Source of the DNA: Verrucomicrobiota bacterium
GTDB lineage: Bacteria; Verrucomicrobiota; Verrucomicrobiia; Chthoniobacterales; Chthoniobacteraceae
Direction: 5' to 3'
NCBI GenBank assembly: GCA_026398235.1
Contig: JAPLTE010000129.1
Location: 1 to 64,000 of the forward strand
Length of the DNA stretch: 64,000 bases
In this document: in pieces, positions 185 to 5,249 of the stretch
How positions within the stretch are numbered: the stretch's first letter is position 1
How the letters are laid out: every line of letters begins with the position of its first letter
Program-made: the position numbers and the translations under genes
The notes under the pieces: model-generated
What the model saw: the letters and a program-made list of their open reading frames with translations, nothing else
Told to the model about the DNA's origin: nothing
Database searches by the model: none

Positions 185-748
185 CTACAAGCTCAGAAAA
201 TTCTGCAACAGCCGCTTGCCTTCCAGCGTGAGGATTGACTCCGGGTGGAACTGCACGCCGTGGATCGGGAACTCCCGGTGACGCAGTCCCATGATCTCCC
301 CTTCCGCCGTTTCCGCTGAAATTTCCAGCGCGTCCGGGAAGGTCTCGCGCTTGACCAACAGCGAATGGTAGCGCGTGGCCTCGAACGGGTTCGGCAACCC
401 CGCGAAGATCGCTTTCCCATCGTGCTGGATGGGCGAGGTTTTGCCGTGCATCAAGCGCCCGGCGCGGACGACGTCGCCGCCGTACACGTAGCCGATGGCC
501 TGGTGCCCGAGACAGACGCCCAGGAGCGGAATGCGCGGCCCAAATTGGCGGATCACCTCGCAACTGATCCCCGCTTCCTTGGGCGTGCACGGCCCCGGCG
601 AAATGCAGATGCGCTCGGGTTGGAGCGCCTCGATTTCCGCCAGCGTGATCTCGTCGTTGCGCTTGACGAGCAACTCCGCGCCCAGTTCGCCGAAATACTG
701 CACCAGGTTGTAGGTAAACGAATCGTAGTTATCGATGACGAGTAGCAT
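185..748 (-). CDS. trpG: Anthranilate synthase component II (glutamine amidotransferase)
   Basis: Supplies ammonia from glutamine to the TrpE subunit for anthranilate synthesis; in some bacteria the same subunit (PabA) also serves p-aminobenzoate synthesis. The 187 residues match a complete class I amidotransferase. The nucleophile is Cys79 in GVCLGHQA, and His168 and Glu170 in the HPES motif complete the triad. The N-terminal [14 protein letters not shown] is typical of TrpG/PabA. It is the last gene of hisI-trpE-trpG, 13 bp after trpE, so it is almost certainly co-transcribed. The TrpG call rests on adjacency to trpE; an amphibolic TrpG/PabA role cannot be excluded. Confidence 0.95.
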
Positions 749-761
749 GGCTATTGAGGGT

Positions 762-2279
762 TTAGTGGTGGCACGAGCAGCCGATTCCCTTGGCGTGGTC
801 GATGGCCCGCATCATCCCCATCGCCTTGTTGACGGTCTCCTGGTATTCCCCCTCGGGCGTCGAATCCGCAACGATCCCCGCGCCCGCTTGCACAAAGGCT
901 TTGCCGTCCTTGAGCAGCACCGAGCGCAGCGTGATGCACGAGTCGTGATTGCCGTCGAATCCGAAATACCCCACCGCGCCCGCATACGCGCCGCGCCGGC
1001 TTTTTTCAGAGGCGTTGATGATCTGCATCGCGCGCACTTTTGGCGAACCCGAGACGGTGCCCGCCGGGAAGGTCGCCCGCAACACGTCATACGCATTGCA
1101 CCCGTCGCGAAGTTTGCCCACCACATTGGAGACGATGTGCATGACATGGCTGTAGCGCTCAATCGTCATGAAATCGGTCACCCGCACGGTGCCGAATTCC
1201 GAAACCCGGCCCACATCGTTGCGCGCAAGGTCCACCAACATGAGGTGCTCGGCGCGTTCTTTGGGATCGGCCAGGAGGTCTTCGGCGTTAAAGTTGTCTT
1301 CCTCCGGGGTGGCACCGCGCTTGCGGGTTCCGGCGATCGGACGAATGGTGATGTTCCCTTCGATGGCCCGCACGTGGACCTCGGGCGAACTCCCCACCAA
1401 AGCGAACTCGTTGCCAAACTTGAGGCAGAAGAGATACGGCGAGGGGTTGATGTACCGCAGCGCCCGGTAGAGTTGCAGCGCGTCGCCCTCAAAATCCGTC
1501 TCGAACCGTTGCGAGAGCACGACCTGGAAAATATCCCCGGCGTGGATGTATTCGTGGGCGTTGCGCACCATCGCGTGGAATTCCGCTTCCGTAGTGTTGC
1601 TGCGCGGCGCTTCCGTGGCTCCGGTGTGGTGGATGTTGACCGGCGGCAGGAACGAAGGCCGGGCAAGCCGCTCCACGAGCGCCTCGATCTTCTCGCAGGC
1701 GATGTCGTAGGCCGTATCGGCGTCGCCGTCCACGAGCGCATTGGAAAGCACGCGCAACCGGCGCAGGCGGTGGTCGAAAATGAGCAGCGTGTCCGTGATC
1801 ATGAACACCATGTCCGGTACGTCATTGGGCGGATGAGCCTCGCGGGGCGGTTCGCCAATGGTCGGCTCAAAAAAACGCACCATGTCATACGACATATAAC
1901 CCACCGCACCCCCGGCGAACCGAGGCAGGCCCGGCATCGCCACGGGCTGGAAGCGGGCCATCAATTTTTGCAATTCATGAAGCGGATCGCCCGCAGCCTC
2001 GAACTGGCGGGTCTCCCCGCATTCGGTCACGGTCACATCGCCTCCGCGCGCTTGAAACAAAATGCGCGGGTCGGTGCCGACGAAAGAATAGCGCCCGCCT
2101 TCATCGCTGTTCTCGGCACTTTCGAGCATGAAGGTATGCCCGCCCCGATCCAGTTTCTGGAAAGCGGAAATCGGCGTCTCCGCATCCGCAATCAACTCCG
2201 TGCTGACGGGAATCACATTGCCCTGGGCTGCCAGCGCGCGGAACTCTTCGCGGCTCGGAGTAATAAGATGGGTGGTCAC
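762..2279 (-). CDS. trpE: Anthranilate synthase component I
   Basis: Converts chorismate plus ammonia to anthranilate, the first committed step of tryptophan synthesis. The protein is about 505 residues from the GTG at 2279, which overlaps the hisI stop as GTGA and therefore suggests translational coupling. The reading frame stays open upstream to 2387 but that part lies inside hisI. The chorismate-binding domain is complete, with PIAGTRKRG, the [18 protein letters not shown] stretch and the C-terminal [17 protein letters not shown] region. An N-terminal SYVL-like region ([17 protein letters not shown]) suggests feedback inhibition by tryptophan, although the usual LLES is here MLES. Long antisense frames over it are shadows. 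Confidence 0.96.
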
Positions 2280-2671
2280 TTGGTGTAAATTTTCTCGGGA
2301 TCGAAAATGCGCGGCTCGGTAATCGGCTCGGGCGATCCGTCCCGTCCGAAAGCCTGGTAAAAGCAGGAGGCATAGCCGGTGTGGCACGCGCCTCCCTCCT
2401 GGTCCACTTCAAAAAGAAGCGTATCCACGTCGCAATCGGCAAACCAGCGCACGACTTTTTGCGTGTGGCCGCTGGATTCCCCCTTGAGCCAGAGCTTCTG
2501 GCGCGAACGGCTCCAGTAGTGCATGAACCCGGTTTCGAGCGTTTTCTCGATGGAAAGGCGGTTCATCCAGGCCATCATGATCACGCGGCCCGCCGTCGGC
2601 TTGCCGTTTTGGGTTTGCTGGATAATGGCCGGGATCAACCCGTCGCTGTTGAATTTGAAATCGAGGTTCAT
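2276..2671 (-). CDS. hisI: Phosphoribosyl-AMP cyclohydrolase
   Basis: Opens the purine ring of phosphoribosyl-AMP in histidine synthesis. The 131-residue protein carries the family signature with metal-binding Asp and Cys residues: a DCDVDTLLFEVDQ stretch followed by GGACHTGYASCFY. It is a stand-alone cyclohydrolase with no HisE pyrophosphatase domain. The start at 2671 is chosen because homologous sequence begins there; the frame extends upstream to 2806 through the leader terminator and is unlikely to be coding. It is the first gene of an operon with trpE and trpG, an unusual mixture of His and Trp pathway genes, and lies directly behind an attenuator with His and Trp codons. Confidence 0.94.
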   Translation of the reverse strand: MNLDFKFNSDGLIPAIIQQTQNGKPTAGRVIMMAWMNRLSIEKTLETGFMHYWSRSRQKLWLKGESSGHTQKVVRWFADCDVDTLLFEVDQEGGACHTGYASCFYQAFGRDGSPEPITEPRIFDPEKIYTK

Positions 2672-2703
2672 GTGGGATTCTGGTTTCGGTTGGATTTTAG
2701 AAA

Positions 2704-2741
2704 TAAAAAAGCCCGACGATTCAGTTTTGGAATCATCGGGC
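2704..2741 (-). terminator. Intrinsic terminator in the hisI-trpEG leader
   Basis: On the minus strand a 12-bp stem (GCCCGATGATTC / GAATCGTCGGGC) with a 7-nt loop is followed by TTTTTT. It sits 33 nt upstream of the hisI start and 75 nt downstream of the stop codon of the HWWH leader peptide, the normal geometry of a transcription attenuator. It could also end tamA transcripts, whose stop lies about 280 bp upstream. Confidence 0.88.
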
Positions 2742-2767
2742 AAAGGGTTCGACGCAAAGGCGGAGAA

Positions 2768-2800
2768 AAGCGATCGACCGCGACTCTCAAAACTCAAGAG
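2768..2800 (-). promoter_or_regulatory. Hairpin between leader peptide and terminator
   Basis: GGCTCT pairs with AGAGTC around a loop of about ten bases, between the leader-peptide stop and the attenuator terminator. It could serve as a pause or competing structure. Which alternative pairing acts as antiterminator cannot be decided by eye. Confidence 0.35.
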
Positions 2801-2815
2801 CCACAAGCCCGTCTG

Positions 2816-2845
2816 CTAATGCCACCAATGCAAGGGAAGTTTCAC
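2816..2845 (-). CDS. Leader peptide of the his-trp operon (MKLPLHWWH)
   Basis: A nine-codon frame starts at GTG (2845) and ends CAT TGG TGG CAT TAG, so its last four residues are His-Trp-Trp-His. An AAGGA Shine-Dalgarno lies seven bases upstream of the GTG (2853-2857). The same frame is open from an ATG at 2911, which would give a 31-residue peptide. The codons match the two amino acids made by the downstream operon, and a terminator follows at 2704-2741. Ribosome stalling at these codons when charged tRNA-Trp or tRNA-His is scarce would be the expected regulation. The role is inferred from position and codons; no tool has confirmed it. Confidence 0.72.
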   Translation of the reverse strand: MKLPLHWWH

Positions 2846-3016
2846 TGGGGAATCCTTTACACCCCGCCCCCCGCCGAAGGCAAGCGGATTTTGAAACCCA
2901 AAATGAGGCATTGAATCGCCTGCTTCGTCTCTTCGCGTGGTCCTTCAGGATACTTCCCGAGTTCCTTTTCCTGGTTTCCTGAGTTCCTGATCATCTCCCT
3001 CTTTCCTGATCCCAGA

Positions 3017-5249
3017 TCAAAACGCGAACCCAAAGCTGAAGTGGATGGCCCCGGTGGGCTGGCCGGGGCGGCGCACCGGGTTCCAGCCGTAGTCGAGCCG
3101 GATGGGGCCGATGGGCAGCCGATAACGCAGCCCGGGGCCAAGAGCAAACCCGGTCTGCCCCAGGCCCGAACCCAGGCGGCGCCCTGTGGAACCGGCATCC
3201 CCGAAGAACGCCAAATCGAGGTTGTCGCGGATCGGCGTGATGAATTCCACCCGGGAACCCATGGCTATCTTTGGGGCCGAGGGTGCGTTCGTTAAAGCTC
3301 CGCACAGTGCGGCTGCCGCCGTTGAAGAAGCGCTCGTCAATGGGCAGGTCGTCACTGGAACCCAGGGGCGCGATCACCCCGCCACGCACCCCCGCCGCAA
3401 GCAGGGATTCCGTTCCCACGGGATGGTAATAGGAGGCGCGGAAAGTTCCGCGCAGGAATTGCAGCGAACTGCCGAGGATGTTCGTCGCAAAATCGCCCGT
3501 GGTGTTGATGACAAATCCGCGCCGGGGATTGAGCACGCTGTCGCGCTTGTCGTAGGTGGCGGAAAGCCCCAGGCTGTCGGCCCGGTAATGGATGGGGCCA
3601 ACCTCCGCAGGATCAATCCCGTGGTTGGCGATCTCCACATACCGCGTCAGGAGAAACGTGGAGATCTCGAGGTTTTTGCCGAATTTCCGGGAGAATTCGG
3701 GACGCAATCCCGTCTCCGTTTTCGAGTAGCCGTCAAGTTCCTGGCTCAACGCAAAGAGCCGTGCGCGCAGCGTGTTTTCCGTCTCCAGAAACCACGGATC
3801 GGTATAGAGCACTTCGCCCCGGAGCAGTTTTTGGGCGATTTCCGCATCGAGGTTCAAAGGCCGCCCGTTGCCGAACAGGTTGCGGTCCACATAATGGGTT
3901 CCGAGGATCAACCCTTCGAGTTTGGCGTACCCGACGGAAAAGCCCAGCTCGCGCGCCTTGGCTTCCTCCACGTCAAAGTGAAGTTCCACTTCGTGGCTGG
4001 GCAGCGGGATTTGCGTGAGTTTCAGGTTGGTGAAAAGCCCGGTGCCGATCAGCTTGCGGTAGAGGTCTTCCAATAGCTCCGGGTTATAAACCTCGCCCTT
4101 GAGGGCCTTAAAACGATTGGGCAAAAAATTCGGGCGCAGTTTGCCCAAGCCGCTCTGCGTCACGCCGTCAAAGCGATAGACCTCCCCGGCGCGGACAATA
4201 AACTTGACTGGCACATACCCGTTGACCGCCTGAGCCGGGTCGCTCTCGCTGCTCACCTCGACGGTGAAATAGCCGCGCGTCCGGTAAAAATAATCGATCT
4301 TTCGCTCCAGGTTCGTCAACGCAAGCGGCGTGTACGGTTTGCTCGTGAACACCTCCATTTCCTTGAGCAGGTCGCGTTGCGGATAAAAAATAATGTCTCC
4401 CTCGAACGTGATCTTCCCGAAATGGTATTGAATCCCTTCGTGAATGGTCACGGCGACATCCGCCCGGGTTTTATCCGGCGAGATCGTAATCACCGGGGGA
4501 TCCACCGTGGCGTCCAGGAACCCTTCGGAATGATACAACCCCCGGATGCGTTCCACCCCGCCCTTCACATCGCTCTCGACATAAGGCAGCGGCTGTTTTT
4601 TGTCGGGAAACCGTTCGCGGATCGCCCCGGTGACGTAGCCCAACAACGTGGAGGCGGGCAAATGGGCGTTGCCGCGAAAAACAACCTCTCCGAGCCGCGT
4701 AAAAGGCCCTTCGACAATGGTCAGCCGCAGCGTATTGCCTGCGGAGATGGCCCATTTCACCTCCACCTGGGAATAGCCGTTCTTGCGGTAGAAAACTCCA
4801 AGCAAAAAAGCGGCGTCATCGGCCAGCGCAGGGGTGAGGCCGGACTGTTCCATGGCCGAGAGCGGATCGGCCAGAGCCGCACGAATCTGGTCCGCGCTGA
4901 AATGGGTGTTGCCTTCCAACACCACCCGCACCCGCGTGAGGACCGGCGGCTTGGGCACCGGCTCGTTGAGGGGCAGCGCCGGTTGATACGGTTCCACCGC
5001 CGCAGGCGCTTGCGGTTCTGGTGCCGGTTGCTCTTCCGGGGCAGGCGCGGCGGGGATCTCCCTCGGGGTCGGCAGCGGAGGCGCAGGGCGTTGCGGAACG
5101 CGGGAAACCGGAGCAGCGGGGGGCGGGGTGGAAATCCCCGGCAGCGGAGTCGGCTCCGGCGGTGCAACCGGCGGCTGCGCATGCAGGGCAAGCAGCCCCG
5201 CCGCGCAAACCGTGGCGATCAGAAAAAGGATTTTAGGCCGGGGGTGCAT
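3017..5249 (-). CDS. tamA: BamA/TamA-family outer-membrane protein, with an apparent C-terminal frameshift
   Basis: Omp85-type outer-membrane assembly protein, probably TamA because it follows a TamB-like gene by 18 bp. It has a signal peptide (LFLIATVCAAGLLALHA), a Pro-rich stretch to about residue 90, three or so POTRA domains (about 100-400) and a 16-strand barrel. The frame read from the start goes out of register near 3250-3262: its continuation to a stop at 2991 is Arg/Pro-rich nonsense. The +1-shifted frame carries a proper barrel ending (VEFITPIRDNLDLAFFGDAG ... GAIHFSFGFAF, stop at 3017) with the expected terminal Phe. One base is therefore lost or gained in the GGGTTCCCGGG stretch. 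A sequencing error is as likely as a real mutation. Confidence 0.85.

Follow-up and report, generated by a model that had tools for sequence, protein, structure and literature searches.

The hisI-trpE-trpG cluster lies on the minus strand of the 64-kb stretch of DNA analysed here (the window), which comes from an uncultured Verrucomicrobia bacterium, in the order omp85-like gene, leader, hisI, trpE, trpG, and the element that precedes it is almost certainly a transcription attenuator. As the explanation of the whole we favour, with a probability of about 0.7, a ribosome-mediated attenuator that acts as a His-or-Trp OR gate on the his-trp operon. Because the arrangement is preserved among relatives of the class, the cluster is probably switched on when either amino acid runs short, and we infer that the attenuator probably responds to His as well as to Trp. 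A preliminary description of this DNA had already read the region as an attenuator; this appears largely right, since the leader, the terminator and the predicted exclusive folds recur in relatives. The parts of the locus are the following:

2878-2883, minus strand: putative -35 element TTGCCT; of 38 leaders, 33 have TTGC in the 5′-most 16 of the 45 nt that precede the start codon
2856-2861, minus strand: putative -10 element TGTAAA, 10 nt upstream of the GTG that starts the leader
2816-2845, minus strand: leader peptide ORF, GTG AAA CTT CCC TTG CAT TGG TGG CAT TAG, MKLPLHWWH-stop, 9 aa (GTG at 2845, TAG at 2816), with related leaders elsewhere
2821-2831, minus strand: region 1, GCATTGGTGGC, with its partner at about 2765-2754 in the ribosome-free fold (RNAalifold consensus and single-sequence fold)
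2822-2830, minus strand: predicted stall codons CAT TGG TGG (His-Trp-Trp), from stalled-ribosome folding of family leaders
2819-2821, minus strand: second His codon, CAT, on the margin of the stall-sensitive range
2807-2814, minus strand: region 2, AGACGGGC, 5′ strand of the predicted antiterminator, pairing with region 3 in stalled-ribosome folds
2730-2741, minus strand: region 3, GCCCGATGATTC, common to the antiterminator and the terminator
2711-2722, minus strand: region 4, GAATCGTCGGGC, 3′ strand of the predicted terminator
2701-2710, minus strand: T-run TTTTTTATTT of the intrinsic terminator, read from the sequence
2276-2671, minus strand: hisI, phosphoribosyl-AMP cyclohydrolase (PF01502, 1.5e-34; NF000768 above cut-off)
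762-2279, minus strand: trpE, anthranilate synthase component I (TIGR00564 above cut-off), whose GTG start overlaps the hisI stop (GTGA)
185-748, minus strand: trpG, glutamine amidotransferase of anthranilate synthase (PF00117; TIGR00566 above cut-off)

The preliminary description had pointed to a frame ending CAT TGG TGG CAT TAG, followed by a terminator, ahead of an operon in which histidine and tryptophan genes are mixed. All of this was borne out: the five codons occupy 2830-2816, the 12-bp terminator (GCCCGATGATTC-loop-GAATCGTCGGGC, 2741-2711, then TTTTTTATTT) reaches 2701 on the same strand, and profile matches identify hisI, trpE and trpG. The start of the frame had to be revised from ATG 2911 to GTG 2845, where the frame conserved in relatives opens. 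The leader RNA fold is much stronger than that of shuffled sequence (z -4.8). When both strands of the window were scanned for a short ORF with adjacent W/H and a strong terminator, exactly one case was found, compared with 3 in total over 20 shuffles of the window; the scan is strict and picks up 18 of the 27 leaders of the family.

In the mechanism that we propose, RNA polymerase would start at, or a few bases from, the GTG of the 9-codon leader ORF. If charged tRNA-Trp or tRNA-His were scarce, a ribosome would stall at CAT-TGG-TGG and mask region 1, leaving region 2 free for region 3 (GCCCGAT); this pairing would block the terminator and hisI-trpE-trpG would be transcribed. If both charged tRNAs were plentiful, the ribosome would proceed to the stop codon and cover region 2, regions 3 and 4 would pair, and termination would follow at about 2701-2710. 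The His codon precedes the Trp codons by 3 nt, and a ribosome stalled at either would therefore leave nearly the same footprint, making the device an OR gate for His or Trp shortage, and the same footprint should be expected whether the His codon is conserved for coding or for pairing.

Promoter-like elements suggest where the transcript might begin. A -10-like hexamer ends 6-12 nt upstream of the start codon in all 38 leaders of the pooled set described below (38% in shuffles), and the best-promoter score was 8.89, against 6.72 (sd 0.15) in shuffles. The good Shine-Dalgarno sequence noted in the preliminary description is present here as an AAGG-like motif, but such a motif occurs in only 5 of the 38 related leaders and is therefore probably fortuitous. 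Taken with this scarcity, the conserved -10 spacing suggests that the leader ORF is probably leaderless or nearly so.

We then turn to the family, which comprises 40 genomes. hisI was found in 39 of them and adjoins trpE in 38 of those, the exception being G015. Reading of the upstream regions yielded 25 leaders; when 23 of these were used to build a covariance model, it recovered the same 25, with leader and terminator at hisI, among 210 genomes of the order. Two further, diverged leaders (G043 and G017) were found by eye, so that 27 of the 40 family genomes carry a leader upstream of hisI-trpE; no leader was recognised in the other 13, and genus g4 has mostly lost it. Examples are MKLSLHWWR, MNSLLHWWRN, MILTAHHWWPC, MNFAHWWWHI, MTNYWHWWHL, MKFFWHWWHF and MNQYWWHFF. 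Over 26 leaders (the 25 of the family plus that of G025, from another family), the first Trp is present in 26 and the second in 22, the residue preceding Trp-Trp is His in 22, and the residue following it is His in 13 and Arg in 6. Both His codons are in use (CAT 32, CAC 8). A strong hairpin with a T-rich tail stands between leader and gene in 24 of the 26 by automatic search and in G020 by hand, and a weak one in G025; this is the intrinsic terminator that characterises the attenuator class, and the remaining 12 leaders were covered in a separate folding analysis.

A class-wide search of 384 genomes located the element in family f16 (6 of 7 genomes) and in G515 of f74. The f16 leaders are MNKMAQHWWWHGSGLKP, MNKTTQHWWWHGLGLKP, MNKMTQHWWWHRSGLKP, MNTTAQYQWWHGSGLKP, MTTTHHWWHGPGLWP and MNKTMQHGWSHRLGLRP, the last from G261, where the contig ends ahead of the genes; that of G515 is MIFSRWHWWH. 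Where the contig permits (five f16 genomes and G515), the genes after the leader include hisF, hisI and trpE, with hisI absent from the gene listing of one f16 genome (G222). trpG comes next in four f16 genomes, G215 and G515 being the other two, and trpE in these operons is usually preceded by a small protein with no Pfam or NCBIfam match. A small protein in the hisI-trpE interval, likewise without Pfam or NCBIfam match and probably membrane-bound by its sequence, was also seen in many mixed operons of the class (e.g. L239:1264-1821, G254). In addition, a strong trpE match was obtained in 310 of the 384 class genomes, and the trpE upstream regions of 60 of these, selected to cover a broad spread, were fetched; 35 of these loci have hisF or hisI upstream of trpE. 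De novo scanning of the 60 loci gave two more leaders, both before hisF of mixed operons, MFAGLSHWHR (G377, f58) and MYSNWHWR (G221, f22); neither the reverse strands nor one shuffle yielded any. Outside the class, 387 sampled genomes of the phylum gave no match to the model used, which also misses f22 and f58.

Pooling these results gave 38 leaders. The preliminary description had made its reading depend on the conservation of His and Trp codons where the terminator is kept, and they are conserved: Trp is present in all 38 leaders, His in 37, and the two are adjacent in 35, the sole leader without His being that of G017 (MNFSCVYWCCPA). His accounts for 60 and Trp for 81 of the 380 residues, against 2.8% and 0.9% in four proteins of the window. 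The leaders therefore carry the control codons of a ribosome-mediated attenuator, namely those for the end product of the operon. One of the 38, from G404 (family f39), is identical to that of genus g1 and sits on a contig end, so it is not independent; the contig is probably mis-binned. G404 (L235) and L057 (UBA1321, 'Methylacidiphilaceae') seem to be one record.

Among the loci examined, the leader was found only at mixed his-trp operons. No comparable leader precedes trpE at 41 evaluable loci of the order where trpE does not adjoin hisI (42 were fetched; G147 is too short), nor was one found at the 25 of the 60 class loci without hisF or hisI upstream, two of which (G431 and G224) are also without a recognisable trpE start; the feature was thus not found at 66 trpE-only loci altogether. 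Counting against our reading, no leader was seen within the scanned stretch for 33 of the 35 mixed operons of the class sample; the start of longer operons may lie further upstream. G015 (L077), whose trpE is no longer next to hisI, retains a terminator-like hairpin and T-run before hisI with no His/Trp leader ahead; this loss of the His/Trp codons upon separation of the two genes is suggestive, as one case. A His-rich leader before hisG was found at none of 25 evaluable loci out of 30, within 520 nt upstream of the domain match, which in some loci reaches only a short way past the real start. Several matches were discarded in the course of these searches. Of the weak covariance-model matches in f6, that of G094 falls at the end of a 5S-rRNA-like sequence and that of G099 does likewise, and those in G091, G129, G212, G184 and G106 were treated as chance. 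The class-search matches in G271, G296 and G388 show no leader.

Folding of the leaders was consistent with a switch. In the consensus structure, region 1 (GCAYUGGUGGC, the His-Trp-Trp codons) is paired with a downstream segment and region 2 lies in a hairpin, leaving the terminator. Within the family the antiterminator pairs are almost invariant, and therefore covariation supports them only between families. To simulate stalling in the 25 family leaders, a ribosome with a footprint of 6-12 nt was set on each codon in turn and the RNA beyond it was folded. When the A site was at the codon before the Trps, which is His in 21 of the 25, the predicted probability of pairing between regions 3 and 2 was at least 0.5 in 24 of 25 leaders with every footprint, placing the His codon inside the antiterminator-yielding range. 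With the ribosome at the stop codon this probability reached 0.5 in 0 of 25 with all footprints, a contrast that the simulation partly imposes, since region 2 lies under the ribosome mask. The antiterminator was predicted in 22 to 24 of 25 leaders with the A site at the first Trp, in 24 down to 6 as the footprint lengthens at the second Trp, and in 22 down to 0, again strongly depending on the footprint, at the codon after the Trps. The better-conserved His would therefore lie safely within the range of stall positions that yield the antiterminator, and the less conserved His at its edge. By the test of an exclusive antiterminator upon stalling at the control codons, 24 of the 25 family leaders would switch. 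The mutually exclusive hairpins expected in the preliminary description are also predicted in divergent families: in f16 and f22 the terminator and antiterminator sequences differ, yet exclusive pairing and a switch at the Trp codons are predicted. G017 and G043 are predicted to switch at the Trp codons too, less cleanly, keeping an antiterminator probability of 0.3-0.6 at the stop, and the leaders of G515, G377 and G025 do not clearly fit the fold model.

The His codons may be read in another way. In a Trp-only attenuator, they would be a by-product of an RNA motif, GCAUUGGUGGC, whose bases are needed in the ribosome-free protector, and His starvation would have no selected role. We regard this as unlikely, even though the His before Trp-Trp overlaps paired region 1 in most family members, so that its conservation could be structural: in the consensus the codon CAY pairs with RUG, its middle A facing U in most leaders, the G preceding it is kept at a third codon position while the amino acid varies, and two of the four His losses before Trp-Trp, TAT (G023) and CGC (G022), retain wobble pairs. 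Salmonella trpL likewise has a His near its Trp codons and no his gene. However, the A persists opposite a partner C, although G would pair there, giving His with a broken pair in G019, G046, G012 and G005 (and Tyr in G023). Over 58 His codons (all leaders folded, G025 excepted), the middle A is paired with a probability >0.5 in 28 and ≤0.5 in 30, and in 38 of the 58 an A-to-G change, His to Arg, would cost ≤0.3 kcal/mol, His being kept nonetheless. His is also found repeatedly both before and after Trp-Trp; all 6 f16 leaders retain the His that follows the Trps, and its A is unpaired in 5 of them; the occurrence of leaders only with his-trp operons among the loci examined is a further point against a Trp-only device. 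From these comparisons we judge coding selection on the His codons to be likely, although many of the codons are paired. The claim of the preliminary description that the stall codons serve both amino acids thus stands as regards their conservation, and is tempered by G017, which lacks His, by the position of the last His at the edge of the functional range of stall positions, and by the share of His conservation that RNA pairing may explain. Because a leader has just one to three His codons, the response to His may be a modest one. On balance we lean towards the view that reading of His and Trp is selected, one leader peptide sensing the charging of both tRNAs and co-controlling a his-trp superoperon, with the His codons maintained for coding; if so, the device would be an old one, present in several families of one Verrucomicrobiota class.

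It is improbable that the leader acts in trans after termination, as a small RNA or a peptide, in the manner of S. meliloti rnTrpL/peTrpL, attenuation being only part of its role; such an action would be compatible with an attenuator. The leader RNA, being short, probably leaderless and equipped with a strong terminator, does resemble rnTrpL as it appears in excerpts of PMC7298713, but peptide length and the sequence outside the His/Trp block vary freely among leaders. That the hairpin is simply the ordinary terminator of the upstream omp85-like gene next to a chance ORF can be dismissed for practical purposes: one terminator is expected somewhere downstream of omp85, but the peptide, the promoter-like elements and the exclusive folds are seen again ahead of hisF or hisI in other genera and families, a promoter-like pair separates omp85 from the ORF, and reverse-strand and shuffle scans give almost none. 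Tunnel-type peptide arrest (TnaC-like) was set aside because the peptide is too short.

The histidine and tryptophan pathways are separate, both drawing on PRPP. Codons for more than one amino acid in a single leader are known from the multivalent ilvGMEDA and thr attenuators, where the amino acids belong to one pathway or branch, whereas here His and Trp belong to separate pathways. E. coli trpL and its relatives share with the present element a short leader peptide, tandem Trp codons, protector, antiterminator and terminator segments, and a terminator before trpE; here, in contrast, hisI opens the operon, His flanks the Trp pair, and the ORF has 9 codons and is probably leaderless. As for trpL, excerpts of PMC1183508 describe two control Trp codons and prevention of attenuation also by a stall at the following Arg codon. 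Enterobacterial hisL is alike in that His codons in the leader peptide sense for a his gene, with seven His codons (PMC1183508, in part) against one to three here, interleaved with Trp. In S. meliloti, the trpE(G) attenuator (rnTrpL/peTrpL) also has a leader ORF at the RNA 5′ end, Trp codons and trpE(G) under its control, and trpL is reported leaderless; it differs in that, in the excerpts of PMC7298713, Trp is the only input and no his genes are involved. The trp attenuators of Corynebacterium and Streptomyces are classical, with two or three UGG codons, and lie outside Proteobacteria; according to excerpts of PMC1262725, Actinobacteria have Trp-only attenuators, and histidine operons there are preceded by no conserved RNA structure. 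The linkage of his and trp genes is not unique, since his operons next to trp operons are noted in Actinobacteria (PMC5445326, in part).

Neither the window nor five related loci matched an Rfam leader family at the gathering threshold; a relaxed threshold gave only three weak matches, all unrelated. In the open-licence PMC literature we found no His/Trp attenuator and no case of attenuation in Verrucomicrobiota. The kind of device is thus known, apparently working like the trp and his attenuators, and what seems new is the input of His plus Trp. As a rule an attenuator serves one pathway; a leader that responds to two unrelated amino acids would show the His and Trp pathways joined through charged tRNA and, if the reading is true, would couple two PRPP-consuming pathways. 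Verrucomicrobiota would also gain a case of attenuation that is ribosome-mediated and probably leaderless.

Some minor observations were made along the way. The leader of G025 (L108), MSLPAIHWWHW before hisI-trpE, differs in RNA layout: its stop codon is immediately followed by a strong hairpin, and a second U-run lies further downstream. Recurring Cys codons are found close to the end of the leader peptides of G010, G009, G020, G005, G017 and G043 (WRLC, WPC, WRC, WCIS, WCCPA, SDPC). In the window, the omp85-like gene (2991-5249, minus strand) shows an apparent frameshift near its 3′ end, with a plausible natural C-terminus, AIHFSFGFAF, in another frame (ORF 3355-3017); this appears to be either an assembly error or real. 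Directly upstream of the promoter-like elements, at about 2961-3010, lies a short dispersed repeat; the queried stretch that contains it gave 33 matches in the genome, of which nearly all fall on the repeat. Finally, positions 1-155, downstream of trpG, hold copies of a palindromic motif (cgttcccaaat / tttgggaacg) that look like a repeated element.
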